Below, piece by piece: positions 3,221 to 45,249 of a DNA stretch of 64,000 nt. Numbering within the stretch: position 1 is the first letter of the stretch; each line of letters begins with the position of its first letter. Position numbers and translations under genes: made by a program. The notes beneath the pieces were generated by a model. The model was given only the letters and a program-made list of their open reading frames with translations, was not told the origin of the DNA and made no database searches. Source of the stretch: Haloferula luteola (GTDB lineage: Bacteria > Verrucomicrobiota > Verrucomicrobiia > Verrucomicrobiales > Akkermansiaceae); NCBI RefSeq assembly GCF_014201715.1, contig NZ_JACHFD010000004.1:186001-250000 (forward strand), in the 5' to 3' direction.

Positions 3221-4009
3221 ATGACTCCCGTTATCCTAGAACATCTGGCCTGGCCGGATCTGGAATGGCTCCGTGAGCAGCACGGCGGCCTGCTGCTTCT
3301 GCCGCTCGGAGCTACCGAGCAGCACGGTCCGCATCTCCCGGTGGCGATGGATACTCTACTCGCAGAAGCGGTGTGTTGGGAGGCATCCGCACAAACGGGC
3401 GTGCCTGTCATGCCGGCGCTCCGCTACACGGTGTCGCAGGGCCACACGACGAAGTGGCCCGGCACCTTTTCCCTGCGGCATGAAACGTTCATGGCCACCC
3501 TGCGGGAACTTGCCGGATGGGCCGTGGCGACCGGTTGGAAGCGCCTTTTGTTGGTGAACGCGCATTTCGGCAACGATGCTCCTGCGCGGGTGGCAGTGGA
3601 TCAACTAAGACTCGCGTACTTGGGGCGATTGCAGGTGGGCTTGGTGCATGTCTTCCAACTGGAGGACGCGATTTGGCGGGCCTATACGGAGGATGCCGCT
3701 GATCTCCATGCGAATCGTGCCGAGACTTCCTTGATGCTCCACCTTCATCCTGACAAGGTGCATCTGGATCGACTGGATGGAGCGGACGATCCCGACCGGA
3801 CAGGCGACACGGTGTTTTCCTATCCGGTGGCCCAAACCAGCCTGAATGGGGTGACCGGTCGGCCCTCCGAAGCGACGGAGAGGGAAGGGCGAGAACTCTT
3901 CGAGGCCATGGTGGGTGCCCTTTCGAAGCGCATCACTCAGGCCACGATGGAAGAGCCTCCGCTTCCCGTCGAAGCGTGGGAGGGTTTGCCGTCCGTGAAC
4001 TTCGAGTGA
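3221..4009 (+). CDS. creatininase-family amidohydrolase
   Basis: 262-residue cytoplasmic hydrolase of the creatininase family (metal-dependent cyclic amide or amide hydrolysis). The family motifs are visible: LPLGATEQHGPHLPVAMDT with the metal-binding Glu, His and Asp, and VNAHFGNDAPAR in place of the usual NGHGGN. Family members include creatinine amidohydrolase, mycofactocin MftE and formamide-forming deformylases, so the substrate is not settled. The gene lies 40 bp after glnT in the same direction and probably closes the transporter operon. An amide or guanidino compound substrate would fit its neighbours. Confidence 0.85.
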   Translation: MTPVILEHLAWPDLEWLREQHGGLLLLPLGATEQHGPHLPVAMDTLLAEAVCWEASAQTGVPVMPALRYTVSQGHTTKWPGTFSLRHETFMATLRELAGWAVATGWKRLLLVNAHFGNDAPARVAVDQLRLAYLGRLQVGLVHVFQLEDAIWRAYTEDAADLHANRAETSLMLHLHPDKVHLDRLDGADDPDRTGDTVFSYPVAQTSLNGVTGRPSEATEREGRELFEAMVGALSKRITQATMEEPPLPVEAWEGLPSVNFE

Positions 4010-31540: not shown

Positions 31541-32484
31541 CGGGTCATCCCCACGGGTGTGGGGAGAGCTGCGAGGGTGCGTTTCATGGTGGTTGGTGGT
31601 GCGGGTCATCCCCACGGGTGTGGGGAGAGCCCCCGGGAGGGTTGGGGGAATCGGTCTGGCGGCGGGTCATCCCCACGGGTGTGGGGAGAGCCATGGTGTT
31701 TCCTCTCCAGATGATTGACCCCTCGGGTCATCCCCACGGGTGTGGGGAGAGCCTCCCTGACGATGCGGTCCGTCACCTCTGCCACGGGTCATCCCCACGG
31801 GTGTGGGGAGAGCACCCGGAAGCTGATTTCTTCCTCGCGCAGCTCTGGGTCATCCCCACGGGTGTGGGGAGAGCGCTCTGTGGGCGTTTCGGAGCATCTT
31901 TGGCGGCGGGTCATCCCCACGGGTGTGGGGAGAGCCGCCGCATTCTCCATGCCCAGATCGCCGGTCGCGGGTCATCCCCACGGGTGTGGGGAGAGCGTTA
32001 CGGGTGCCATCGGTGCAGAGTCTCACCACGGGTCATCCCCACGGGTGTGGGGAGAGCTGGTGTTGTGTGTGTTGTGGGTGTGGTGGGTGTGGGTCATCCC
32101 CACGGGTGTGGGGAGAGCGTAGTCCGTGGGGTGGATCTGCGGATCCTCATCGGGTCATCCCCACGGGTGTGGGGAGAGCCAAGAAATCCCTCCATCAATC
32201 GAGTATCGGAACGGGTCATCCCCACGGGTGTGGGGAGAGCAGCTCCGGTTTGTAATCCTCCAACTCTCCCACCGGGTCATCCCCACGGGTGTGGGGAGAG
32301 CCTCCACGATCCGCGAAATCGCTCTGGCGGGTGCGGGTCATCCCCACGGGTGTGGGGAGAGCGGTTGGGCTTGGGCATCATCCGTCGAAGGTGACGGGTC
32401 ATCCCCACGGGTGTGGGGAGAGCCGGGTAGGTTTCGCATTCGATTCTGACGCATTCGGGTCATCCCCACGGGTGTGGGGAGAGC
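31541..32484 (-). CRISPR. type I-E CRISPR array, 16 repeats and 15 spacers
   Basis: Sixteen copies of a 29-bp repeat at an exact 61-bp period (spacers 32 bp) run from 31541 to 32484. Read on the minus strand each repeat begins GCTCT, has the stem CCCCAC, a 4-nt ACCC loop, GTGGGG, and ends ATGACCCG, the expected type I-E handle. The first 28 plus-strand bases are identical in all copies; only the last minus-strand base varies (G in 14 copies, A at the repeats starting 31847 and 32091), the base that comes from the PAM during uptake. Orientation is set by cas2 and the leader on the right, so the newest spacers are near 32456. Confidence 0.98.
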
Positions 32485-32555: not shown

Positions 32556-32867
32556 TCAAAAAGGACAATTCTCTGGCTCGATCCATTGTTCCGCAATCAA
32601 GGGAATGCCTGAGAAATCTACTTCTCGGCGTCCGCTTTGTCCCTCTGGGCCGATGTGTTCGATGACGTAGCCTTGGCAATTGGGGGCAGAGGAGATGACA
32701 AGAAGGCCAAAGTCAGGAGGTGAATTTCGCAAGACGAAATCCAGCACCTTACGGATGGTGCGGACATTGAGGGTGCCGATGAAAACGTTGGGTCTGGGCT
32801 CGATGAACCAGCGTTTTAAGTGCCCCCGGATGGCAGGTGGGGTGTTGTGGGCGACGAGGACCGTCAT
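32556..32867 (-). CDS. cas2: CRISPR-associated endonuclease Cas2, type I-E
   Basis: 103 residues. MTVLVAHNTPPAIRGHLKRW at the start, then WFIEPRPNVFIGTLNVRTIRK, matches the Cas2e (CT1978-like) family that forms the Cas1-Cas2 integration complex inserting new spacers. ATG 32867 was chosen over an upstream TTG at 32882. The length is close to the family norm. It lies 52 bp after cas1 and is the last cas gene before the leader. Confidence 0.93.
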   Translation of the reverse strand: MTVLVAHNTPPAIRGHLKRWFIEPRPNVFIGTLNVRTIRKVLDFVLRNSPPDFGLLVISSAPNCQGYVIEHIGPEGQSGRREVDFSGIPLIAEQWIEPENCPF

Positions 32868-32919
32868 GGCGGTGGCGAGCAAAGCTGGTGCGACAACAGG
32901 GTCAGACTAGCGAGGTTGC

Positions 32920-33816
32920 TCATGCGTCGGATCGAGGTTGCAGAGGATTCAATTCGCACTCGTCCGGAGCTTGGCCCGGTAGATTGTCGAAGAGTTTCTT
33001 CAATTCATCCGGCATTCGGCGGAGCATGCGGGTTTCCTCGATACGGCGTTTGAGAATCTTGCGCACGAGGGAGCCGTCATCCTTTGGGTCGATGGACAGG
33101 GCTTCGAAGGCGGCAGGCCAGGAGGTTTGGTGTTTGTAGAGATCCGCTGCGTCATAGATGAAGGGCAGGGTGCCGGCTTGGTGGACAAATCCCAGTTGGG
33201 GAAGAAAGCCCATGGAACAGCAAACAGCCGCGGTGAGGGCGTAAAGTGAGGCATTGGAGGCGGAAAGGGCACGGTTGATGCCATCGGCGAGGCTCCAGTT
33301 AGAAGTTTTGTAGTCGCGGCCTTTCCAAATGACGCCGAATTGGCTGCCGAGTTCTGCGTAGGTAGCCTTGACTCGTCTCCCTTCCATCCCCCGTAGTTGC
33401 TGGATGGAAAGTCCTTGGACACGCGCTTCAGGAAAGCGATTGAGAAACATGCGCCGGGCGACTTCGGCTCGTTTTCGCCTGTGGGCCCAGGCATCGGCAT
33501 GGAGGCGGGCCATTGAGTTGTCGTGATTGGGCGTGATGCCGAAGGCGTAAAAGCGCATGCCGTCTTCGCCCATCCAGAAGACGGGACAATTCGACTGGGC
33601 ACAGGTTTTGATGGCCGCGTGGGTGAGGGTGGTGCCGGGACCGAGAATGAGGGCGGAAAGGGTGGCGACGGGGAGGCGAGTGATGAAACCGTCGGCTCCA
33701 ATCCATTTGACCGAAGCATCATCCACTTCGAGGCGGCCTTTCTCAAGGTAGATGGGCGTCCAGCGGTCCCGTGCGGGCGTGAGGCTGTCGAGCGGGGGAC
33801 GTTCGAAGATGGGCAC
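32920..33816 (-). CDS. cas1: CRISPR-associated integrase Cas1, type I-E
   Basis: 298 residues. The catalytic metal ligands are visible: E145 in RGMEGRRVKATY, H212 in GFVHQAGTLPFIYD, and D222/D225 in YDAADLYK. The N-terminal beta domain and WIGADGFITRLPVATLSALILGPG pattern are typical of Cas1e. Together with Cas2 it captures protospacers. The start lies 5 bp after the cas5e stop, in one polycistron. Confidence 0.97.
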   Translation of the reverse strand: MPIFERPPLDSLTPARDRWTPIYLEKGRLEVDDASVKWIGADGFITRLPVATLSALILGPGTTLTHAAIKTCAQSNCPVFWMGEDGMRFYAFGITPNHDNSMARLHADAWAHRRKRAEVARRMFLNRFPEARVQGLSIQQLRGMEGRRVKATYAELGSQFGVIWKGRDYKTSNWSLADGINRALSASNASLYALTAAVCCSMGFLPQLGFVHQAGTLPFIYDAADLYKHQTSWPAAFEALSIDPKDDGSLVRKILKRRIEETRMLRRMPDELKKLFDNLPGQAPDECELNPLQPRSDA

Positions 33817-33821
33817 GGGAG

Positions 33822-34544
33822 TTAAGGGGTGGGGCGGTGATGGCGGACGGGTCGCGCGGGGTAGGCGGTGGGCACTGGGCCATGATGGGCGCCGAAGGCG
33901 ATGGGTTGGTCATTGGGATAAAAGGTGCCATCTCCAGGCTGGGAGGTTTCGACTTCTTGCTGGAATTCGAAGTGATCGAGTGGACCTGGGGAAATGCCGG
34001 GAATCGTATTAAGGAGGGCGTTGAAGGCCTGAGCTTCATCGTCTCCCAAGGTGGGAGTGAGGGGAGTGGCGGGGATGCAAGACTTGCGCCCAAACCAGAC
34101 GCCCCAAATTGGGTCGAGGAGAGCTTGATGGAGTTCGACGAGGACCTCAGAGTCGCCGCTAAGAATCGCGGCAAAGGCGGCGTCTGTGAGATAGCTGCGG
34201 CGGGTGATGACGGTGCCAAAAGGGGCGCCTGATGCTTTTTGAGGGATGCTCATTTTCTCACGTGTGGAGGCCTTCCTATCGTAGCCACCGCCAATGGTGT
34301 GAAAGTCGGTGAGCCGGGTGGTTGCGACTGGCTTGGGGAGTTTGACCACAGTGAGGTGGAGGGAGGCGATGGGAGCGAGCTGGGCGGGTTCTTGCGGAGA
34401 GTATTTGTCGATGCCCATGGCGGCGGCGAGCAGGCCGACGATGGCGGATTTGGTGGGAAAGTTTTGGGTTTCCCGGAGCTGGAATTTGGAGGACGCACCC
34501 CAGGATTGGAGGGGAGCGTCGATGTAGAAGGCGAGGGAGGACAT
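33822..34544 (-). CDS. casD: Cascade subunit Cas5e
   Basis: 240 residues. The start MSSLAFYIDAPLQSWGASSKF and PTKSAIVGLLAAAMGI are the standard Cas5e N-terminus that caps the crRNA 5' handle. ATG 34544 was chosen because it begins with this motif, 4 bp after the cas7e stop; an in-frame start upstream at 34577 would overlap cas7e. The C-terminus (FGAHHGPVPTAYPARPVRHH) is slightly longer and His/Pro-rich. Confidence 0.94.
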   Translation of the reverse strand: MSSLAFYIDAPLQSWGASSKFQLRETQNFPTKSAIVGLLAAAMGIDKYSPQEPAQLAPIASLHLTVVKLPKPVATTRLTDFHTIGGGYDRKASTREKMSIPQKASGAPFGTVITRRSYLTDAAFAAILSGDSEVLVELHQALLDPIWGVWFGRKSCIPATPLTPTLGDDEAQAFNALLNTIPGISPGPLDHFEFQQEVETSQPGDGTFYPNDQPIAFGAHHGPVPTAYPARPVRHHRPTP

Positions 34545-34548
34545 GGGA

Positions 34549-35568
34549 TCAGCCGAGGAGTTGGTGAATGAAGGCATCGATGCCGCCGGGGGTCTGAGTG
34601 AGATAGAGTTTTTCGCCTTGGTCTCCCCAAATTCGTTCGATGTCGGCGAGATGTTGGTTCATGGCCACCAGCGATGCTTCGGCAAAGCCGTTGTCATGGG
34701 CTTTTACGGGATTCTCGAAGGCGTTGATGAGTTGGAGGGGCTGACCGGTGGGTTTGCGGATGCCGAGCACTTCGTGGGGCAGGGTGCCGGCGTTCATTGA
34801 ATTCTTGCGAGCGCCGGGGACCGCGACGAGGGCGGAGCGAATGAAGGTCCTGAGAATATCTTTTCTCTCGTCGTCACTGAGCCCGGCGAGGTGTTGGGGG
34901 CTGGCGAGGAGATCGAGATTGATCGCGAGGTAGCGGTAGTAGGTGGCGGAATTAAACTCTAGGGTACCGATCATGCTCGCACCGGCGTCCTCTGAGTCCA
35001 CTTTGCGGTCATCCACTGCGGAGAAGAAATCGACTTCGTTGTCGGTGCGGTGAGTGGACAGGGCGTGGGAGAACATGGCGGCACCTTCGACGTTCAGACT
35101 TGCGTCGTTGGCGACCATGCGCCCGAAGAGGGCGATGTCTGCGGCATCGTTGCGAGTGGCGTTCTTGATCGCTTTCTTGGTTTCCTCTCCCGCGGCAATG
35201 GCCGTGGAGATGTTGGCGATTTCGGAGGGCGAGAGGTAGACGGCCGTGGTGACTTGATCAGGGTTCTTGCTATCGGGCTTGCTGAAGAGTTTGCAGAGTT
35301 CGTCGGCTTTGGCCTTTGCAAGCTCCTCTTCCAGACCGGCCTGAAGCAGTGCGTCGGTGAATGGGGCGAGGAGGTAGCGTGAGCGGATGCCGTCGAAACC
35401 CCGGTGCAGATCATGGGCGAGAAGTCGGCTGGCGCGCTTGAGACATTGGCTAGAGATGCGAGCACGTCTGGTACCGCCAAAGAGAGCGGATTTTGGAGAG
35501 CCGACATCATCGCGATTGAGGCAAGAGACGGGGAAGGACTGAAGGATGTGAAGTTCGATGAGATTCAT
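34549..35568 (-). CDS. casC: Cascade backbone subunit Cas7e
   Basis: 339 residues. MNLIELHILQSFPVSCLNRDDVGSPK and FGGTRRARISSQCLKRA are the conserved Cas7/Cse4/CasC N-terminal blocks, which bind the crRNA backbone. The middle includes ALFGRMVANDASLNVEGAAMFSHAL. Six copies form the Cascade backbone in known systems. It follows cas6e by 32 bp. Confidence 0.96.
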   Translation of the reverse strand: MNLIELHILQSFPVSCLNRDDVGSPKSALFGGTRRARISSQCLKRASRLLAHDLHRGFDGIRSRYLLAPFTDALLQAGLEEELAKAKADELCKLFSKPDSKNPDQVTTAVYLSPSEIANISTAIAAGEETKKAIKNATRNDAADIALFGRMVANDASLNVEGAAMFSHALSTHRTDNEVDFFSAVDDRKVDSEDAGASMIGTLEFNSATYYRYLAINLDLLASPQHLAGLSDDERKDILRTFIRSALVAVPGARKNSMNAGTLPHEVLGIRKPTGQPLQLINAFENPVKAHDNGFAEASLVAMNQHLADIERIWGDQGEKLYLTQTPGGIDAFIHQLLG

Positions 35569-35600: not shown

Positions 35601-36230
35601 TTAGAGGGGAGAAAGACAGAGCATGCCGAAGCCGAATGCTTTGGCTGATCCGATGCCGGAGTGCGCTGCGTGGAGAAAAAGCTCGGGATCAGTGACTTCG
35701 AGAGTGCCGGTGAACTCAGTCGCACAGTGGAGTCCTGCGGACCCTTTTTTGAGAAAGGCTTGGCGTGGCCGTGGAAGGGTTTTGAGAGTCACAAGATCTG
35801 GGGCGAATCCGTTCTGTTCTCCCTTGCGAGACATCCAATCGATAAGGTCCTGGCGGCTGACGAGAGCTTCGCGCCGACCGTTTTTTTTGCGATGACCGTC
35901 GGGGTCGCGGACCACTCGCTTGCGAGTCGGATTGGCGAGCAGCGAAAACTGATAGTGACGATGCTGGAAGAAGGTGTCGGCGATGGTTTTGGACTGCCAT
36001 TGATCACTGGGGCACCAATCTGGCCGGCTGGGCGGTTCTTGAGAAAGGATGAGCAGCCGGAAATCGTGACCGGTATCATCCAGGCGGGTGAGGAAGTCTC
36101 GCGAGGCTTCGGGGCTTCCTGGGAAGGCTTCCCACACCCGCTTGTGCCAAGCGTAGCTGTCGCGGAAACCGCCGTCCTTCCAAGGCCGAGCGACGATGTC
36201 GTATGGAATGCGAGCTTGGGTGAGAATCAT
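35601..36230 (-). CDS. casE: crRNA endonuclease Cas6e
   Basis: 209 residues. The C-terminal glycine-rich block GIGSAKAFGFGMLCLSPL is diagnostic of Cas6e, and the N-terminal ferredoxin-like part has AWHKRVWEAFPGSPEASRDFLTRLD, including a likely catalytic His/Tyr neighbourhood. It cuts the repeat 3' of the CCCCAC/GTGGGG stem, leaving an 8-nt ATGACCCG handle. Its ATG overlaps the cse2 stop (ATGA). The position between cse2 and cas7e differs from the E. coli order, where cas6e follows cas5e. Confidence 0.93.
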   Translation of the reverse strand: MILTQARIPYDIVARPWKDGGFRDSYAWHKRVWEAFPGSPEASRDFLTRLDDTGHDFRLLILSQEPPSRPDWCPSDQWQSKTIADTFFQHRHYQFSLLANPTRKRVVRDPDGHRKKNGRREALVSRQDLIDWMSRKGEQNGFAPDLVTLKTLPRPRQAFLKKGSAGLHCATEFTGTLEVTDPELFLHAAHSGIGSAKAFGFGMLCLSPL

Positions 36231-36742
36231 GGCTCGGGAGAGGTTTCAGCAAGGGGAGGCGATTGCCAAAAATCGGAGGCCCAGCCGAGTTTGACACGGT
36301 CCGCCCATGAGCTCCAATGGTTGAGGTTTTGATGCACTGCGTGGTAATCGAGTGGGACGGCTTCGCGGGAGAGACGCATCGCAAGACGGTGAAGCCGGTG
36401 GGCGAGGTCTCCTGGCGCAGCGACGCTGCCGAGTTTCTCGGCAGCTAGAAGCCGCCGGAAATGGCGGTCAAACGGGTGCTCTCCGTCGGAGCGATCACCG
36501 AGGCGTAGCGCGGCTTTGCCTACGGTGAAACCGTCCTTGTGTAGGGGGTGCTCGGCGTAGAGGGCGGCGAGAAGACATTTCCGGGAATCGTCCAAAGCAC
36601 CGAGGATTCCCAGGATTGGATAGGCTTGGTGTCGAGTGGCGGGGCTCCAGTATTTTCGCAAGGAAGCACGCATGCCGCGGTCGTCATCCACGCATCTTTG
36701 CAGACGCTGGAGGAAAGAATCGTGGTTTGGAGGTGGGCTCAT
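36227..36742 (-). CDS. casB: Cascade small subunit Cse2 (Cas11e)
   Basis: 171 residues. The helical Cse2 pattern is visible: FLQRLQRCVDDDRGMRASLRKY at the start, EHPFDRHFRRLLAAEKLGSVA and LAHRLHRLAMRLSREAVPLDYHAV later. The protein stabilises the R-loop as a dimer in Cascade. ATG 36742 gives the usual length and follows the cse1 stop by 22 bp; an ATG at 36787 would overlap cse1. It overlaps cas6e by 4 bp. Confidence 0.9.
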   Translation of the reverse strand: MSPPPNHDSFLQRLQRCVDDDRGMRASLRKYWSPATRHQAYPILGILGALDDSRKCLLAALYAEHPLHKDGFTVGKAALRLGDRSDGEHPFDRHFRRLLAAEKLGSVAAPGDLAHRLHRLAMRLSREAVPLDYHAVHQNLNHWSSWADRVKLGWASDFWQSPPLAETSPEP

Positions 36743-36764
36743 GTTAGGGAGATCAGATGGAGGG

Positions 36765-38237
36765 TCAGGTTTGGGATGGGGTGGCATTCTTTGTCGCACC
36801 GGGAGGCTTCGGGTAGAGAGCTTTCCGCAGGACACGGGCACCTGCGGAATGCGCTTGGATCTGGCGCGGAGTGGTGTGAGGGCACACGGACTTGAAGGCG
36901 CGAATGGCCGCTGCGCGCACGAGAAGGGTCCACGGGTCTTTGGCATCGTGACTGCCAATCTCGGCTTGTCCTGGCTGCGGCTTGCCCGCCATTTCAATGA
37001 GAGTCCGATGGTTCTGATCGAGCTGGTGCCAGAATTGTTTCTTTCCCTCGAGGATGGGGGGATTTTCGTGGCTCAAGGATTTCCCGTAGGTTTTGATCGC
37101 ACCATACAGGAATTTGGAGACGGCCTCGGCATGGTCGATTCCCGCTGCGTAGAGGTGCTGTCCAGCCTCGCCGAAAAGTGCTTGAGGAATGGTGAAAGTC
37201 GATTCCGTGGCGTCTTCAATTTTAGCATCCTTCGCCTTGATCAATTCTCCAACCCACAGATCCGTCGTTTCTCCAAGATTCTTACGGGCATTGAAACACT
37301 GAAGATTGAGCGCCGCATCGGAACCGACAGAGTGAGTGAGGTTGGTGAGCAGGTGGAGATCGCGCCAGATGCCCTGATCGGGTTTTGCGCGGAGGAGGCG
37401 ACGTTTTTCATTCTTCCCGTCTTTGATGATCTCGATGGAAGCAAACGGGTCGCGGTAGGCTTCGAATTCGAGGTAGGAGTGACCTTGATCGATAAAGAGG
37501 GTTTGAAGGTCATCACTGAGCCAGAGTGCACAAGAAATTGGCGCCAAGCGTGCGAGGAGGTTGTGATCGGGAGGGCCCTCCCAAACGGGCTTGCCGAGGT
37601 GACCTCCGGTGCGCTCGATCGTTTCAAGATCGAGCGCATTGCGGAGGATGCTGTCGCGAAGTGAGTCTCCTTTCAGCAGCATTTGGAGGCTTTTAAGGGC
37701 AGGCCCGTTACCCTTGACCTTGGAGGCCATGCTCCCACCGACAAAAAAGTTTTGAAGGCAGAGGACGAGCAAAGCAGCGGCGGATGGAGTCCAAGGCCGG
37801 GGTGCTTCTCCCCAGTGATCGAGAAGTTTGGAGTTATTGCCCGACGAGAGATGGAAGGCAGATTTGCTAAGTGGATAGCCATCTTTGGGGTCAAGCGACT
37901 TCGGTTTCTTTTGAAGAAACCGTGGATCAGGACCGAGGAGGTGAAATCGAGGATGAATGGTGGGGTGGTGCAGATAGGCCGGCACGGCGATCTCCAGGTC
38001 GGATCCGAAGTCTCCCCATTCATCCGCATCCAAAGGAGCGCCGAGGGCGGCATGAGTGATGCAGACCAAGAGTCGCATCAATGCGATGCGTTCGTGAGGC
38101 GCCCCATCGATGTCCGCGATTTTTTCCGAAAGCGCAAAGGCCTCGCAGAGAGAGATTTGGGGCGGCCGCCTCGTTTCAGAAGATGGAAGCCAACGAACCG
38201 GGATCCACGGTTGGTCGATGAGGTTGAAAGGAGTCAT
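36765..38237 (-). CDS. casA: Cascade large subunit Cse1 (Cas8e)
   Basis: 490 residues. MTPFNLIDQPWIPVRWLPS is the typical Cse1 N-terminus (FNLxxxPWIPV), with SLCEAFALSEKIADIDGAPHERIALMRLL next and FLQKKPK in the middle. It recognises the PAM and recruits Cas3. The ATG at 38237 is the first gene of the seven-gene cse1-cas2 transcript. The 300 bp upstream, between it and cas3, carry a hairpin terminator, the candidate protospacer and the mini-CRISPR. Confidence 0.96.
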   Translation of the reverse strand: MTPFNLIDQPWIPVRWLPSSETRRPPQISLCEAFALSEKIADIDGAPHERIALMRLLVCITHAALGAPLDADEWGDFGSDLEIAVPAYLHHPTIHPRFHLLGPDPRFLQKKPKSLDPKDGYPLSKSAFHLSSGNNSKLLDHWGEAPRPWTPSAAALLVLCLQNFFVGGSMASKVKGNGPALKSLQMLLKGDSLRDSILRNALDLETIERTGGHLGKPVWEGPPDHNLLARLAPISCALWLSDDLQTLFIDQGHSYLEFEAYRDPFASIEIIKDGKNEKRRLLRAKPDQGIWRDLHLLTNLTHSVGSDAALNLQCFNARKNLGETTDLWVGELIKAKDAKIEDATESTFTIPQALFGEAGQHLYAAGIDHAEAVSKFLYGAIKTYGKSLSHENPPILEGKKQFWHQLDQNHRTLIEMAGKPQPGQAEIGSHDAKDPWTLLVRAAAIRAFKSVCPHTTPRQIQAHSAGARVLRKALYPKPPGATKNATPSQT

Positions 38238-38326
38238 AATTATCGTGCAGAAAGTGGACAGAGAGGGAGTTGAACCCTATTCTCGACGATAGGAAGCGTG
38301 AGTGATCACCGGATCGCTCTGCCCTT

Positions 38327-38364
38327 GGGGTTGTGACTGTGCTACCAGTCACAACCCCTTTTTT
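38327..38364 (+). terminator. strong intrinsic terminator-like hairpin between cas3 and cse1
   Basis: GGGGTTGTGACTG (38327-38339) and CAGTCACAACCCC (38346-38358) form a perfect 13-bp stem with a 6-nt loop, followed by TTTTTT (38359-38364) on the plus strand. On the minus strand no T-run follows the stem, so it would terminate a plus-strand transcript, antisense to the cas operon. In the minus direction it would instead be a structured element in the cse1 5' leader. A weak promoter-like pair (TTGGTC at 38211, CATAAT at 38235) could start such a short plus-strand RNA. Confidence 0.7.
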
Positions 38365-38395
38365 CATCGTTACGGCGGATTGTCGACAAAAAACT

Positions 38396-38414
38396 AAGTC
38401 GCGAAGAGTTGCTC
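38396..38414 (+). promoter_or_regulatory. candidate protospacer (AAG PAM) for the mini-CRISPR RNA
   Basis: AAG at 38396-38398 is followed by TCGCGAAGAGTTGCTC (38399-38414). This equals the first 16 nt of the pseudo-spacer at 38491-38506 except at position 6 (A here, C in the pseudo-spacer). AAG is the classic type I-E PAM, and position 6 is flipped out of the crRNA-DNA duplex in Cascade, so a mismatch there should not weaken binding. The site lies about 160 bp upstream of the cse1 start, where bound Cascade could block its transcription. Confidence 0.75.
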
Positions 38415-38461
38415 AGCGAGAAAGAGAATATTGCAAAACTGAATGAGTTCTACACGATCCG

Positions 38462-38539
38462 TCCTCCCTCTATTTTGGGGGGATGGCCCGTCGCGCAGAG
38501 TTGCTCGGGTGACTTCCCCACAAACGTGGGGCAGAATTT
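38462..38539 (+). ncRNA. CreR/CreA-like mini-CRISPR RNA (two degenerate repeats, one pseudo-spacer)
   Basis: psiR1 is 38462-38490. Its last 12 bases match the array repeat at 11 of 12 (handle ATGGCCCG versus ATGACCCG), and CCTCCC/GGGGGG can form the stem. psiS is 38491-38510 (20 nt). psiR2 is 38511-38539, with the array stem CCCCAC, a 4-nt loop and GTGGGG intact and the flanks diverged. Hand counts against the 29-bp repeat are 16/29 and 18/29. The RNA would run on the plus strand, opposite to cas genes, and psiR2 ends against the cas3 stop codon. Known CreA/CreR RNAs have this layout and guide Cascade to a partly matched site without cleavage. No promoter was assigned. Not a normal array: one spacer, shortened, far from the leader. 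Confidence 0.72.
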
Positions 38540-41213
38540 AGAACCAATAATCTTCGAGATCAGTAGTGAAGGGTGACGATTCGATTTGCTGCTGGGTCAG
38601 ACCAAGGAAGGACGTATATCGAAGAGATCGATTGGAAGGGGAAACGGGAAGGACCTCAATCGAAGAATCGTGCAAAACCGCTATGACTCCGTCATCCATG
38701 TGTTGTTGCAGCCATTCGGGAGCTGCTCGCAAGGATGCGTGGACCCAATGTGCCGGAATCCGGATGGCATTGAGATGGATGGCGGTTGCTAGGTCGTAAG
38801 AAAAGAAACCCTTGGGAAAGGTGATCGAGCTGCCGTGGAGAGGATGAACCGTGATGACGGTGGAGGACTCCATGGGAGGCCTTTTGAGGAGCACAAGCTG
38901 GGCAGACGGTTGAATGTTGAAGCGAGTTTCATGGCCTTCCTGGTCTTTCAGTGCGGATGCTGAGAAGACATCACGGGTCGCCGCAGTGCCATTCTGTAGG
39001 TCAGAAGCCGTTTGGAGCTCGTGGTGGAATGTGTGGAGGGTGTCTGAGGCTCCGACCTCGGGCAGCTGAGCGGCACTTCTTTCAAGGGTGGTGCGGACCT
39101 GGGAAGGGAGAGAGATGGAATCCATGGGATGCAGGGTGGTAGAAGCCTGCCATAGTCGGAACGCCGGATAGATATAGTGGTGGGGGGCGAGGCTTTTGGT
39201 GAGAGCTTCCTTTCCATTTTCCCAATCGACCGGCGGATAGAGGATGTGACAGGTTGTTTTGTCCATTCCCGGTGGGCGGGGATGTGGGTGCCGATGGAGA
39301 CGGCCGATTCGCTGAAGAATGAGTTCTGTAGGGGCAAGATCGGTGATTAGGAGATCGGCATCGATATCCACAGATTGCTCGACAATCTGAGTGGAGACGA
39401 GCAGGGAACCAGGAGGTCGAAGGGATGAATCTTTGCCGAGCAGCGAAACCCAACGGCTTTCATTTCTTGAGCGCTGCCAGATGGGAAATCGTGAGTGAAG
39501 GAGGCCGCAGTGAGCTTCTGGAATGCGATCGCTCAACAGGGATTTGAGATGCCGGTAGGTTTCTTGAGCGAGAGCGACAGTGTTGCGGATCACAACAACG
39601 TTGGCACCCAGTTCCACCCAACTTGCGATTTTCTTCCAATATGCGCTTTCATTCTCTTGAGTGAGTGACTGATGAACGAGATGAACACGGTTTGAATGAG
39701 GCTCGCTGGATTCGGGAAAAATGATAGGGATGGCTTGGGTGGCATCGGCCGTGATTTTGGTAATCAGGGGGTAAGGGACTTCGTCTGGGGCCTGCAAAAG
39801 CGCCGATTGAGAAATGCCCTCATACCGGGGCTCCTGATCCAGAGCTTTCCTCGCTGCGGCGATGAGCTGGAAACGGCGCTCTGAGGTCAGAGTGGCGGAG
39901 AGGATGATGATCGTGGATCCAGCCTTCAAAAGATAGCGAATGAGTCGATCGATTAGGGCCGAAATATAGGGGTCATAGGAATGGACTTCATCGACAACGA
40001 CAACTTTTCCCGCGAGCGCGAAGTATCGGAGGGCTGCGAAGCGGGCAGGGAGGATGGCGAGGAGTGCTTGGTCGATGGTTCCTGTGCCGAAAGGGGCAAG
40101 GAGTTGGCGACGTGTGGAGTTGAACCAGCGTAGCGCTTCGTCGGTGTCATTGTGATCGAACTCGTCGACCCGGGCGGAAAGTCGGCGATTGCGAGCTCCA
40201 TGGAGCCAGGCATGGCCATGGACGAGGGAGTGAGTGGCTTCCTCTCCAAGGACGTTCTTCAGGAATGAAGTGATTCTATCGTGGATGCGTTCGGAGGAAA
40301 GTTGGGTGGGGAGAGCGAAGTAGAGTCCTCGCTCCGTTCCTTCGGTCCAACGGCGATAGGCAGCAGCGAGCGCGGCTTCGGTTTTGCCCATTCCCATGGG
40401 TGCTTCGACGATGTAGAGACCGGCCTGATCGGCGGCATCGACGAGGGTGGATTGGAGGGGGCGCGGTGCCAATGGGGGGAGGCCATCAGTGTGAAATTGG
40501 GACTCAAAGGTGATCCCAGGGCGGGGACTGGAGTGAAGCCCCAGTGCTTTGGTAAGCTCACGAATTCGCGAGGCGATGGCTCCCTCCTCCACTGGGAAAT
40601 CGAACGGGAACCAGTCCGTATTGGATCCCAGCCAGTCGGAGAAGATCGTGAAACCTGTAAGCAGATGGATGCGCTCAGGTTGGTTCTTCGCTGATTCGGT
40701 CGGGAAGGGGCCAAAGGTTTCGATAAGGATTTGAACAAGTTCCTCGCGTAGGGGAATGAAGTCGGGATTTCCTCCTTCGAAGGCGGGCGCTGTCGCACGT
40801 TTCAGACCGTCGGGATAGCCACCATGATGCCCGGCTGTCGAAATGAGCCATAGCCTAGCGAGAGGATGAAGGGAATGGATAGGCGAGAACTGAAGGTGGG
40901 ATTGGCTGACCGCGGCATGGAGGGTGATGAGGCCGTTCAAATGAGTGAGCCGGCGGCAGGATTCATGGAATTCCCAAAGAGGGCACTTGAGTTGGAAGCC
41001 AGGGGTGATTTTGCCCAAGTCATGGGCAGCGATAAGGGAGGCGAAGCCGTGTGGGAGGAGATGGCGAACCGGCTTGGGAATCTCCGAAGCGAGGGCGTTA
41101 GCGATATGTCCAACGATTAGACAATGGTCGCGCACGGAGAGCCCGGGGAGGCCCGTGACGGGATCGGATTTGGCCCAGCAATCTTGGAGGCGGAGGGTAG
41201 GAGAAGCTTCCAC
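38538..41213 (-). CDS. cas3: CRISPR-associated nuclease-helicase Cas3
   Basis: 891 residues. The HD nuclease domain comes first (RDHCLIVGHI, then AAHDLGKITPGF with H64/D65). The superfamily 2 helicase follows: VEAPMGMGKTEAALAAAYR (Walker A), VVVDEVHSYDPY (DEVH box) and IILSATLT (motif III), with late motif QRIGRLHRHPHPR. It is recruited by Cascade to nick and degrade target DNA. The start is GTG at 41213; an in-frame TGA lies just upstream. The stop borders the mini-CRISPR. It is separated from cse1 by 300 bp, so it is transcribed separately or at a different level. Confidence 0.96.
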   Translation of the reverse strand: MEASPTLRLQDCWAKSDPVTGLPGLSVRDHCLIVGHIANALASEIPKPVRHLLPHGFASLIAAHDLGKITPGFQLKCPLWEFHESCRRLTHLNGLITLHAAVSQSHLQFSPIHSLHPLARLWLISTAGHHGGYPDGLKRATAPAFEGGNPDFIPLREELVQILIETFGPFPTESAKNQPERIHLLTGFTIFSDWLGSNTDWFPFDFPVEEGAIASRIRELTKALGLHSSPRPGITFESQFHTDGLPPLAPRPLQSTLVDAADQAGLYIVEAPMGMGKTEAALAAAYRRWTEGTERGLYFALPTQLSSERIHDRITSFLKNVLGEEATHSLVHGHAWLHGARNRRLSARVDEFDHNDTDEALRWFNSTRRQLLAPFGTGTIDQALLAILPARFAALRYFALAGKVVVVDEVHSYDPYISALIDRLIRYLLKAGSTIIILSATLTSERRFQLIAAARKALDQEPRYEGISQSALLQAPDEVPYPLITKITADATQAIPIIFPESSEPHSNRVHLVHQSLTQENESAYWKKIASWVELGANVVVIRNTVALAQETYRHLKSLLSDRIPEAHCGLLHSRFPIWQRSRNESRWVSLLGKDSSLRPPGSLLVSTQIVEQSVDIDADLLITDLAPTELILQRIGRLHRHPHPRPPGMDKTTCHILYPPVDWENGKEALTKSLAPHHYIYPAFRLWQASTTLHPMDSISLPSQVRTTLERSAAQLPEVGASDTLHTFHHELQTASDLQNGTAATRDVFSASALKDQEGHETRFNIQPSAQLVLLKRPPMESSTVITVHPLHGSSITFPKGFFSYDLATAIHLNAIRIPAHWVHASLRAAPEWLQQHMDDGVIAVLHDSSIEVLPVSPSNRSLRYTSFLGLTQQQIESSPFTTDLEDYWF

Positions 41214-41804: not shown

Positions 41805-44285
41805 TCACGGATCTTGAAGTTGAGGGCCGATGGGATCGGTCTCTGGGGCTGCGTCGAGTGAACCTTGTGAGGGTTCTGGAATGGGCTGAGCCAGGAGGGC
41901 GCCGATTTCATGTTCGTGCTTTTTCCACCAGTTTCTCCAGAGATCTGTTGAGTTAGGGGGGGATCTTGGGAAGAGATATTCTGTCGGTGCATCAGGAAGG
42001 TGCATTTTACTGAGGGTAAATGCAGCGGAATCCGGATTTGTCATGCTTCCTCCACCTTCTCCTAACCAAATGCTTAGCTGCTCTTTCGTCCATTCGGGCT
42101 CTTCGAGTTCGTGGTCATCCATGAGGCACCAGCCCAGAAGTCGCACCGACCACTCTTCACGGAAATCTGCCAAACGGAGGATGGAGTTGTGGCGAAATAG
42201 AGAGTTGGAGTAGTGATAGGGCGTTGTCTTGATTTGCTTTTCTTTGAAGGCGGGGAGCTCGGGATGAGTTTCTACAAGGAAATCACGAAGTTGGTTTTTT
42301 AAGTCGGCCTTATCAGGGGAATGGGCGAAGGTCTGGGTAAGTTCGCTGTATTGCACGATGGCCTGAAAGGTGTCGTTGGTAGTATCGAGTTCTTTCAGTC
42401 GCCAAGCGTGTTCCGTTTTTCTGATATCGCTGAGGTTGCGGATGTCCGTGACGTTTTGAGCGAGGAGTACGCCGATTTCATGCTCGTGCTTTTTCCACCA
42501 GCCTTTCCAGAGTTCTGTTGAGTTAGGGGGGGATCTTGGGAAGAGATCACCTGTCGGAGCATCGGGAAGCTGCATTTTACTAAGGGTAAATGCAGCAGTA
42601 TCCGGATTCGTCATGCTGCCTCCACCTTCTTCTAACCAAAGATTGAGTTGCTCTTTCGTCCACTCGGGCTCTTCGAGTTCACGGTCATCCATGAGGCACC
42701 AGCCTAGAAGACGAATGGACCATTCTTCTCGAAAGTAGCGCAATACTTTGATGGAACTACTTCGAGAGATTGAGTTTGTATAGCGATATGGCACCGTCTT
42801 GATCTGATCTTCTTTGAAGGCGGGTATTCTTGGGTGTCTTTTAAGAAGTATTTCATAAAGTTGTTTCCTTAAGTCGATTTTGTCGGGAGAGCTTCCGATC
42901 TCCCAGATGAGATAGGAAAAGTATGCGATGGTTTGTTGTGTGTCCTCAGTTGTTTCGATGATGTCGAGCATCCATCCGTGGCGTGTTGATCGAATGTCAT
43001 TCAGGTTGCGGATGTCCGTGACGTTTTGAGCGAGGAGGGTGCCGATTTCATGCTCGTGCTTTTTCCACCAGGCTGTCCAGAGCTCGATTGATTTCGGCGA
43101 AACGGATAGGAAGAGATCATCTGTCGGAGCATCGGGAAGCCGCATTTTGCTGAGGGCAAGGGTAGCCGATGTTGGGTTCTTCATCCGGCCTCCACCTTCC
43201 TCCAGCCAGATGTCGAGTTGCTCTTCGGTCCATTCGGGCGCTTCGAGTTTACGGTCATCCATGAGGCACCAGCCCAGAAGTCGCACCGACCACTCCTCTC
43301 GGAAATCGGCCAAACGGACGATGGAGTTGTGGCGAAATAGAGAGTTGGAGTAGTGATAGGGCGTTGTCTTGATTTGCTTCTCTTTGAAGGCGGGGAGTTC
43401 GGGATGGGTTTCTACAAGGAAATCACGAAGTTGGTTTTTTAAGTCGGCCTTATCGGGGGAATGAGCGAAGGTCCGGGTAAGTTCGCTGTATTGAACGATG
43501 GCCTGAAAGGTGTCGTTGGTAGTTTCGAGTTCTTTCAGTCGCCAAGCGTGTTCCGTCTTTCTGATGTCGCTGAGGTTGCGGATCTCCGTGACGTTTTGAG
43601 CGAGGAGGGCGTCGATTTCATGCTCGTGCTTTTTCCACCAGTTTCTCCAGAGATCGACAGAGTTGGGATTCGAATTGAAGAATAGGTTTTCTGTCGGTGC
43701 ATCAGGAAGTTGCATTTGGCTAAGGGTAAAGGCTGCAGCTTTTGGATTCGTGGTGCGGCCTCCTCCTTCTTCTAACCAAATATTGAGTTGCTCTTCGGTC
43801 CATCCGGGCTCTTCAAGTTCGCGGTCATCCATGAGGCACCAGCCCAGAAGTCGCACCGACCACTCCTCTCGGAAATCGGCCAAACGGACGATGGAGTTGT
43901 GGCGAAATAGAGAGTTGGAGTAGTGATAGGGCGTTGTCTTGATTTGCTCCTCTTTGAAAGCGGGGATCTCGGGATGATTTTCTATAAGGAAGTCACGGAG
44001 TTGGTTTTTTAAGTCGGCCTTATCAGGGGAATTGGCGAAGGTCCAACAAAGTTGGGCGAATTGGCTGATGGCCTGAAGGGTGTCGTTGGTGGTTTCGATT
44101 GTTTCCAATTGCCAAGCGTGTTCCGTCTTTCGGATGTCACTGAGATCATGGACCCCCTGATCGTCTTGAGCGAAGGCGTTGAGGGTAAGCCCTGCAAGGA
44201 TGCTATGGACGAGGAGGAGGAGGGCTTTGGGGGAGTTCCTCGGTGTCAGGGGAGAACGGGGATGGGTTGGAGATGTCGCAGCCAC
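41805..44285 (-). CDS. secreted protein made of four 190-residue repeats, unknown function
   Basis: 826 residues. A signal peptide (ALLLLVHSILAGLTLNAFAQ) follows a GTG start at 44285. Four tandem units of 190 residues fill almost all the rest (about 46-805). Each contains SDIRKTEHAW, SPDKADLKNQLRDFL, FREEWSVRLLGWCLMDD, EWTEEQLxIWLEEGGG and WWKKHEHEIGALLAQ, with two invariant W-rich blocks, and is mostly helical. No known domain was recognised. A fifth unit is in the upstream gene at 44335. The gene is in line with three other secreted-protein genes. A structural, binding or envelope role is possible; no catalytic motif is seen. Confidence 0.8.
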   Translation of the reverse strand: MAATSPTHPRSPLTPRNSPKALLLLVHSILAGLTLNAFAQDDQGVHDLSDIRKTEHAWQLETIETTNDTLQAISQFAQLCWTFANSPDKADLKNQLRDFLIENHPEIPAFKEEQIKTTPYHYSNSLFRHNSIVRLADFREEWSVRLLGWCLMDDRELEEPGWTEEQLNIWLEEGGGRTTNPKAAAFTLSQMQLPDAPTENLFFNSNPNSVDLWRNWWKKHEHEIDALLAQNVTEIRNLSDIRKTEHAWRLKELETTNDTFQAIVQYSELTRTFAHSPDKADLKNQLRDFLVETHPELPAFKEKQIKTTPYHYSNSLFRHNSIVRLADFREEWSVRLLGWCLMDDRKLEAPEWTEEQLDIWLEEGGGRMKNPTSATLALSKMRLPDAPTDDLFLSVSPKSIELWTAWWKKHEHEIGTLLAQNVTDIRNLNDIRSTRHGWMLDIIETTEDTQQTIAYFSYLIWEIGSSPDKIDLRKQLYEILLKRHPRIPAFKEDQIKTVPYRYTNSISRSSSIKVLRYFREEWSIRLLGWCLMDDRELEEPEWTKEQLNLWLEEGGGSMTNPDTAAFTLSKMQLPDAPTGDLFPRSPPNSTELWKGWWKKHEHEIGVLLAQNVTDIRNLSDIRKTEHAWRLKELDTTNDTFQAIVQYSELTQTFAHSPDKADLKNQLRDFLVETHPELPAFKEKQIKTTPYHYSNSLFRHNSILRLADFREEWSVRLLGWCLMDDHELEEPEWTKEQLSIWLGEGGGSMTNPDSAAFTLSKMHLPDAPTEYLFPRSPPNSTDLWRNWWKKHEHEIGALLAQPIPEPSQGSLDAAPETDPIGPQLQDP
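41871..44150 (-). repeat. four tandem 570-bp DNA repeats in the coding region
   Basis: The landmark CGATTTCATG(C/T)TCGTGC, encoding HEHEI, recurs at 41903, 42473, 43043 and 43613, a constant 570-bp step. Long identical stretches (for example around 43261-43330 and 43841-43910) show recent duplication or gene conversion. A fifth, more diverged copy lies at about 44538-45108 in the neighbouring gene. Copy number may vary between strains or be miscounted in short-read assemblies. Confidence 0.9.
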
Positions 44286-44334
44286 GGTGGTTTCGCTGTT
44301 GGGTTGGAGGGAGCTTTGGGGTGGATTGGATGCA

Positions 44335-45249
44335 TCAGGGCGATTCGTCGCGGGATTTGCGGCGAGCGATCAGAAGGAGGGCGGTGAGGCTTATGGCGAG
44401 AAAAGCACCGAGAATCCATGCCCACCGATGTGGGGGGGACTGAGCGAGTGACGAGTTTTCAGCCGGAGTTGAAGGGGGGGCGTTGTCTTGAACAGCGTCC
44501 TGAGGGGGCTCTGCGGAGCCCTTGTCCTGAGCCGCTTGTGATGGATCTGGGATGGGTTGAGCCAGGAGGGCGCCGATTTCATGCTCGTGCTTTTTCCACC
44601 AGCCTTTCCAGAGTTCGATCGATTTCGGGGTAGTTGATAGAAAGAGATCGCCTGTTGGTGCATCAGGAAGCTGCATTTTACTGAGTGTGAAAGCCGCAGA
44701 TTCCGGATTTTTATTTTGCCCCCCGCCTTCCTGAAACCAGATGTCGAGTTGCTCTTCGGTCCATTCGGGTTCTTCGAGTTCACGATCATCCATGAGGCAC
44801 CAGCCTAAGAGTCGAACCGACCACTCCTCACGAAAATCAGCGAGGCGGGTGATGGAGTTGTCTCGGAATTGTGAGTTTGAATACCGATAGGGGACGGTCT
44901 TGATTTGCTTTTCTTTGAAGGCGGGGAGCTCGGGATGGTTTTCTAGGAGGAATTCACGAAGTTGGTTTTTTAAGTCGGCCTTATCAGGGGAATTGGCGAA
45001 GGTCCAAGTAAGTTCGCTAAATTGGACGATGGCCTGAAAAGTGTCGTTGGTGGTTTCGATTTTTTTCAGTCGCCAAGCATATTCCGTTTGTCGGATGTCA
45101 CTCAAGCTGTTGATGTCTGGAGTAGATTGAGCGAAGGATGCTGTTGTGGAAGAGGTGAAGTAGTGGATATGGATAAGTATTGAGAGACTCAGTATCCCAT
45201 TCTTCGTCCGTGAAAAATGTCGGTTTCTTCTTTGAGGAGCAGGGCCCAT
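44335..45249 (-). CDS. membrane-anchored protein with one 190-residue repeat
   Basis: 304 residues. An N-terminal leader (ILSLSILIHIHYF then SSTTASFAQ), one repeat unit of the same kind as in the 41805 gene (about 48-237), a Pro/Ala/Gln linker, and a C-terminal membrane helix WAWILGAFLAISLTALLLIA followed by RRKSRDESP. This suggests an exported domain held at the inner membrane with a short basic cytoplasmic tail. The ATG at 45249 overlaps the end of the metzincin-like gene by 61 bp; no later canonical start exists before the leader. Function unknown; probably works with the four-repeat protein. Confidence 0.78.
   Translation of the reverse strand: MGPAPQRRNRHFSRTKNGILSLSILIHIHYFTSSTTASFAQSTPDINSLSDIRQTEYAWRLKKIETTNDTFQAIVQFSELTWTFANSPDKADLKNQLREFLLENHPELPAFKEKQIKTVPYRYSNSQFRDNSITRLADFREEWSVRLLGWCLMDDRELEEPEWTEEQLDIWFQEGGGQNKNPESAAFTLSKMQLPDAPTGDLFLSTTPKSIELWKGWWKKHEHEIGALLAQPIPDPSQAAQDKGSAEPPQDAVQDNAPPSTPAENSSLAQSPPHRWAWILGAFLAISLTALLLIARRKSRDESP

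Follow-up and report, generated by a model that had tools for sequence, protein, structure and literature searches.

The window analysed here, a stretch of 64,000 nucleotides of DNA from Haloferula luteola, contains a complete type I-E CRISPR-Cas locus that is read from the minus strand in the order cas3, a 300-nt gap, cse1, cse2, cas6e, cas7, cas5, cas1, cas2 and a 16-repeat array. Behind cas3 (38538..41213) and the gap follows cse1 (Cas8e, 36765..38237; PF09481, 6.1e-47), the first gene of the operon that is predicted to be repressed, and then cse2 (36227..36997; PF09485), cas6e (35601..36230; PF08798), cas7e (34549..35568; PF09344), cas5e (33822..34577; PF09704), cas1 (32920..33816; PF01867) and cas2 (32556..32882; PF09707), all on the minus strand. 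The native array (31541..32484, minus strand) consists of 16 repeats of GCTCTCCCCACACCCGTGGGGATGACCCG, 14 of them exact and two ending in A. At 41832-44939 of the minus strand, blocks of 300 nt and of 126 nt recur in five copies each, mostly 570 nt apart, in and beside an 826-aa ORF for which Pfam gave a weak Ig-like match below the cut-off.

The gap between cas3 and cse1 harbors a mini-CRISPR on the plus strand (38462-38539), composed of a first degenerate repeat (psiR1, 38462..38490), a 20-nt pseudo-spacer that forms the guide (psiS, 38491..38510) and a second degenerate repeat (psiR2, 38511..38539), with which the cas3 stop codon shares two bases. Since the cas operon and the native array are both read from the minus strand, the mini-CRISPR is antisense to the cas operon. 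Both repeats are predicted to fold as hairpins: psiR1 has the stem CCTCCC/GGGGGG and an 8-nt handle, ATGGCCCG, that retains seven of the eight bases of the native handle ATGACCCG, while psiR2 has a CCCCAC/GTGGGG stem. Compared ungapped with the native repeat, psiR1 is identical at 16 and psiR2 at 18 of 29 positions, so that the repeats taken alone are near chance, their 13 and 11 mismatches being matched by numerous sites elsewhere in the window. Also on the plus strand, and roughly 160 nt upstream of where cse1 starts, an AAG motif (38396-38398) is followed by a partial protospacer (38399-38414) that equals psiS at 15 of 16 positions, with the mismatch at position 6 (together 38396..38414). 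The initial annotation had described the repeats, guide and target with their coordinates and sequences, the AAG-preceded 16-nt match interrupted at position 6, the seven retained handle bases and the psiR2 stem, and all of this is present in the sequence as it was given.

A PAM-free scan ranked the guide-target pair as the best of 1,643 positions, with 15/16 identities against 11 for the runner-up and with AAG in front. When positions 6 and 12 are left out of the score the pair reaches 14/14, which was attained by none of 200 dinucleotide shuffles (maximum 11), and only one site in the genome sequence (4.9 Mb, 95.5% complete) has AAG followed by a match to guide positions 1-12 when position 6 may vary. 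The shuffles, the PAM-free scan and the single genomic occurrence rule out a chance match as the source of the pair.

Related loci were collected by seeking cse1 in drawn, overlapping genome samples, where it was found, at the cut-offs used, in 13 of 195 genomes of the family, 23 of 386 of the order and 22 of 387 of the phylum; further overlapping samples yielded 4 of 74 for the family of genome G323, 20 of 384 for the class, 7 of 73 for the genus of G013, a genome of the same family as that of the window, and 2 of 18 for the window's own genus. From an alignment-based cse1 scan of named contigs the best 80 of 245 were kept, and a single-protein scan of contigs found no relatives. Among 139 locus entries, which include L173 and many duplicates, a cas3-cse1 gap of at least 100 nt is present in 20 entries, corresponding to 15 distinct loci. 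The gap was measured to the nearest upstream open frame of 150 codons, a rule that misjudged L020, whose gap was reset with cas3, and that left the gap unmeasurable in five entries (L026, L071, L080, L094 and L123) with no upstream open frame on the stretch available.

Seven of the 15 distinct gapped loci share the design of an antisense guide with a matching target, preceded by AAG each time: the window, L032 (G013), L033 (G323), L021 (G349), L058 (G830), L110 (G520) and L172 (G196). Eight gapped loci belong by kinship to the window's own phylum, and seven of these carry the design, L116 being the exception. In all seven, psiR1 and psiR2 form hairpins of at least five pairs, and the guides are unrelated in sequence, each with its own AAG-flanked target. 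That the six further loci have differing guides, each with its own matching AAG target, indicates that guide and target changed together. The initial annotation had proposed to look for conserved guide-target pairs in related cas3-cse1 gaps, and such pairs are thus found in six further distinct loci, with that of L033 no better than shuffles. In the unweighted PAM-free scan (1,643 positions) the target ranks first in six of the seven loci, with AAG before all six, whereas the target of L033 ranks first only among AAG sites and its degree of pairing was attained by 163 of 200 shuffles. With the misjudged gap of L020, 142 of 200 shuffles reached the pair, and in the longer L172, where the gap is set by cas3, the pair was found in the PAM-free scan; the shuffle test of L058 was limited to the 420 nt nearest the guide. 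A convincing AAG pair was not found in the gaps of L067, L068, L070, L077, L105 and L116. In the gaps of L074 (Methylomicrobium sp. RS1) and L083 (Mailhella), a guide-like sequence after a GTGTTTCC handle matches a nearby site that is preceded by AAC, on the cas-sense strand and with the sole mismatch at position 12; these two could possibly be CreR or CreA guides that differ in PAM and orientation. The carriers are scattered among gapless relatives in a tree of 25 cse1 sequences, such that the window's sister L029 and the nearest relatives of L021, L110, L033 and L058 all lack the gap, as would be expected if the module has been gained and lost repeatedly.

In Cascade, every sixth position is flipped out. 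Across the seven loci, mismatches occupy 11 of 14 cells at positions 6 and 12 compared with 3 of 70 at the other positions from 1 to 11 (p = 6e-9), and in L172 the mismatches within the first 18 positions are exactly 6, 12 and 18. The first target finder left positions 6, 12 and 18 free, and L021, L058, L110 and L172 were initially picked out by eye; the repeat search used no position weighting and demanded no PAM, and the mismatch counts are unchanged when the AAG-site targets of the unweighted scan are used. The pattern at positions 6 and 12 would be an independent sign, visible in sequence alone, of guides that act through Cascade, and it could be used to find more such guides despite their fast sequence change.

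A promoter directed toward cse1 is predicted at 38361..38389 of the minus strand, where TTGTCG (38389-38384) is separated by 17 nt from TGAAAA (38366-38361). The match is weak, with a poor −10-like box, and a consensus scan for sigma-70 sites reported none on this part of the minus strand. Nevertheless, all seven loci have, on the cse1 strand, a TTG that begins 8-15 nt from where the PAM begins, and each has an AT-rich stretch on the way from the PAM to cse1, an arrangement that resembles the UP element and −35 region depicted for Citrobacter rodentium in the available part of PMC12055562. The predicted leader RNA would begin with a 13-bp hairpin (38327..38358, minus strand). On the plus strand the same segment (38327-38358) reads as a perfect 13-bp hairpin followed by TTTTTT and is terminator-like for any transcript running against cse1; a hairpin without the T run occupies the corresponding place in G013. 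A scan of the window gap found no terminator-like site on the minus strand between the tRNA-like RNA described below and cse1. A toxin ORF on the minus strand was considered for the leader of the window and rejected, none being convincing: an ATG at 38367-38365 opens a frame that runs into cse1 out of phase without reaching a stop within the piece examined, and no counterpart was seen by eye in the G013 leader. The distance from the PAM to the cse1 start is 48 nt in L110, which is too short for a toxin gene behind a promoter, and 86 nt in L021, where at most a mini-ORF fits. L058 has a 779-nt gap with a 63-aa ORF (3436-3627, plus strand) between the CreR target and cse1; Pfam gave no match for two L058 ORFs, and the 63-aa ORF could possibly encode a protein toxin as in CrePA.

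A CreR- or CreA-type guide in a type I-E locus, as the initial annotation had proposed, is the best reading of this layout, and it gains support from the related loci with AAG pairs of their own. CreR, a cas-regulating RNA, was reportedly described by Liu and co-workers in Cell Host Microbe in 2023. In the accessible parts of two reports it is crRNA-like and has partial complementarity to the cas promoter (PMC13131331; PMC12737573), and type I-E is named among the types with a reported CreR (PMC13131331). The layout itself is directly visible in the repeats, the guide and its AAG-flanked target, the six other loci, the mismatches at positions 6 and 12 and the spacing in L110 and L021, and the guide of the window is probably functional. 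Transcription, processing, binding, repression and relief are inferred from it as follows. The plus-strand mini-CRISPR RNA would be cut by Cas6e to yield a guide RNA with the 5′ end AUGGCCCG, which would load Cascade and hold it on the partial match, likely without DNA cleavage. This site lies upstream of the predicted promoter of cse1-cse2-cas6-cas7-cas5-cas1-cas2, at an AT-rich, UP-like stretch, and Cascade held there would curb its own production, with relief expected when crRNAs or anti-CRISPRs draw Cascade away. The function common to all seven loci is most likely such an autorepression of the Cascade operon, because L110 has no room for a toxin gene.

Two further explanations would deny the guide any function. 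The repeats and the tRNA-like RNA could be a decayed remnant of an old array and a pseudo-tRNA, in keeping with the strong degeneration of the repeats and the patchy set of loci; a plain remnant array is ruled out by the antisense strand and the matching AAG targets in seven loci, and the broader version is improbable in view of the different guides that match their own targets, the mismatches placed at positions 6 and 12 and the compensatory changes in the tRNA-like RNA. The guide-target match could also be a simple local duplication in which Cascade has no role, as two direct copies lie 92 nt apart. This is very hard to reconcile with the seven loci, where the guides are unrelated and the match nevertheless starts exactly after the handle and AAG and ends by about position 17-20 or earlier.

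While the guide and target assigned to the cas3-cse1 gap by the initial annotation have stood, a tRNA-like RNA between the target and cse1 had been overlooked. This element (38255..38324) is encoded on the operon strand, i.e. the minus strand, and forms a 70-nt cloverleaf whose 3′ end lies 17 nt before the cse1 start. It has the acceptor stem GGGCAGA/TCTGTCC with G3:U70, A73, a D arm, an 8-nt anticodon loop (CTTCCTAT) and the T loop TTCAACT. ARAGORN, Rfam at the gathering thresholds and a whole-genome Rfam tRNA search at E 0.01 all missed it, and its weak Rfam matches, of 21.5 and 19 bits, are to tRNA-like families only. A descriptor built from the T loop, T stem, 7-bp acceptor and D stem matched this element alone in the 64-kb window, and it recovered 29 of 30 tRNA loci with no match in 2.7 Mb of base-shuffled sequence. 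Across 144 loci outside the tRNA set (1.02 Mb, duplicates included), the other distinct matches were the counterpart in G013 and a real-looking tRNA in L040. A clear tRNA-like RNA is thus present in two of the seven loci, the window and L032 (G013), while the descriptor found no regular one in L033, L021, L058, L110 and L172. The G196 leader (L172, 10060-10180) has an irregular three-armed fold with the T-loop-like CTCAACT, which could be a degenerate tRNA-like structure. An exact search for the 5′ part of the window element in viral contigs found none.

The G013 element was called by ARAGORN as tRNA-Gln(ttg) and scores 30.7 bits in the Rfam tRNA family, above the cut-off and the weakest of 45 in that genome; it also matches tmRNA ends weakly (Rfam 20.6 bits, below the cut-off of 47), and its minimum-energy fold is not a cloverleaf. 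Folded alone, the window element has a z-score of −1.7 (11 of 200 shuffles fold as well), and together with the hairpin −5.9. When the two elements are compared at 15 pairs of the acceptor, D and T arms, with the anticodon arm left out, six pairs differ at both bases and none at a single base. Pairing is complete in the acceptor, D and T arms of both copies, whereas the decoding arm of the window element is degenerate, with a bulged stem and an 8-nt loop. The anticodon loops differ, with UUG in L032 and CUUCCUAU in the window, which makes a shared decoding effect unlikely. Both elements have G3:U70, a pair that tRNA-Ala alone carries among the 29 distinct tRNAs parsed from both genomes (from 30 loci of 89 tRNA matches). 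G3:U70, A73, G2-C71, G4-C69 and G20 are listed as bacterial alanine determinants in the available part of PMC9976931; the window element has A73 and G2-C71, and C-G in place of G4-C69 at 4:69.

If the autorepression operates as proposed, the repressed RNA of the window would begin with the hairpin and the tRNA-like fold; excision of the latter by RNase P would be expected. The reading adopted for this fold is a co-repressed, CreT-like cargo that acts on translation, with a processing element about as likely; it is chosen since the creTA systems that occupy this gap in other bacteria follow such a pattern, with a toxin just downstream of the target. As a toxin, the RNA would accept alanine and either interfere with translation or sequester AlaRS, EF-Tu or RNase P; cells that lose Cascade would thereby be poisoned. 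This may be the case, at rather less than even probability: the type of gap and divergent layout are shared with the creTA of C. rodentium type I-E and Acinetobacter type I-F, as far as these are described in the available text (PMC12055562; PMC10097628), known haloarchaeal CreT RNAs act on tRNAs (PMC8501985, available part), and two loci from separate cse1 branches have the element immediately downstream of the target, each copy carrying G3:U70 and the two differing by compensatory changes. Against this, it is found in only two of seven loci, its anticodon loops differ, and no terminator-like site separates it from cse1 on the minus strand. Comparable credence, again short of even, is given to a cis-acting part of the leader that is not a toxin and is excised by RNase P and the tRNA 3′ endonuclease, thereby determining how stable the cse1 mRNA is or how it is translated. 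The 17-nt distance to cse1, the degenerate decoding arm and the full pairing of the other arms in both copies speak for this reading; G3:U70 and A73, on the other hand, are not required for RNase P. The most specific form of the adopted cargo reading, in which the Cascade-repressed leader is an alanine-accepting, tRNA-mimicking toxin and one guide silences the transcript for both Cascade and the pseudo-tRNA, is tentative and on the unlikely side. If it were true, loss or blockage of Cascade would simultaneously raise the supply of Cascade and release a translation poison, and this would be the first CreT to imitate a tRNA instead of trapping one. Should the tRNA-like leader be active in either way, CRISPR control would be joined to tRNA biology via a charging or processing mark.

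CreR autorepression has already been reported for type I-E, and what is added here is a set of loci in this phylum, to which guide-RNA autorepression of type I-E Cascade would thus be extended. New is the predicted tRNA-like RNA with alanine marks in the leader of the window and one relative; no paper joining CreT with a tRNA-like RNA was found in the literature searched, in which most subscription papers are missing. The following comparisons refer to the available parts of the reports cited. The type I-E CreTA of C. rodentium likewise occupies the cas3-casA gap, with creA on the opposite strand and its target over the UP element of the toxin promoter, and both systems use a canonical type I-E PAM, ATG in C. 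rodentium and AAG in the window; its toxin, however, is a 96-bp ORF that needs translation, whereas the window has no convincing ORF and a tRNA-like RNA in the leader (PMC12055562). In the type I-F CreTA of Acinetobacter, located in the cas3-csy1 gap, creT and creA are divergent, with creT downstream of the target, and two degenerate repeats are present, but the system is of another type and its creT RNA contains a 33-bp mini-ORF and a hairpin and does not resemble a tRNA (PMC10097628). The CreTA systems of Haloarcula hispanica and Halobacterium hubeiense share the partial guide pairing beside a PAM, which in H. hubeiense covers positions 1-5 and 7-11, and the degenerate repeats; they differ in being type I-B and in having CreT RNAs that sequester rare tRNAs and are not mimics of them (PMC8501985; PMC9458426). 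With the acceptor domains of tmRNA and tRNA-Ala the tRNA-like RNAs have G3:U70, A73 and a canonical T loop in common (PMC9976931; PMC3985003), yet they are 70-75 nt long, have no tag-coding part and lie in a cas leader. With CreR the window has in common a crRNA-like guide, partial complementarity by the cas operon and autorepression, which in the window is predicted from its sequence; what sets the present loci apart is the tRNA-like RNA in the putatively repressed leader of two of the seven.
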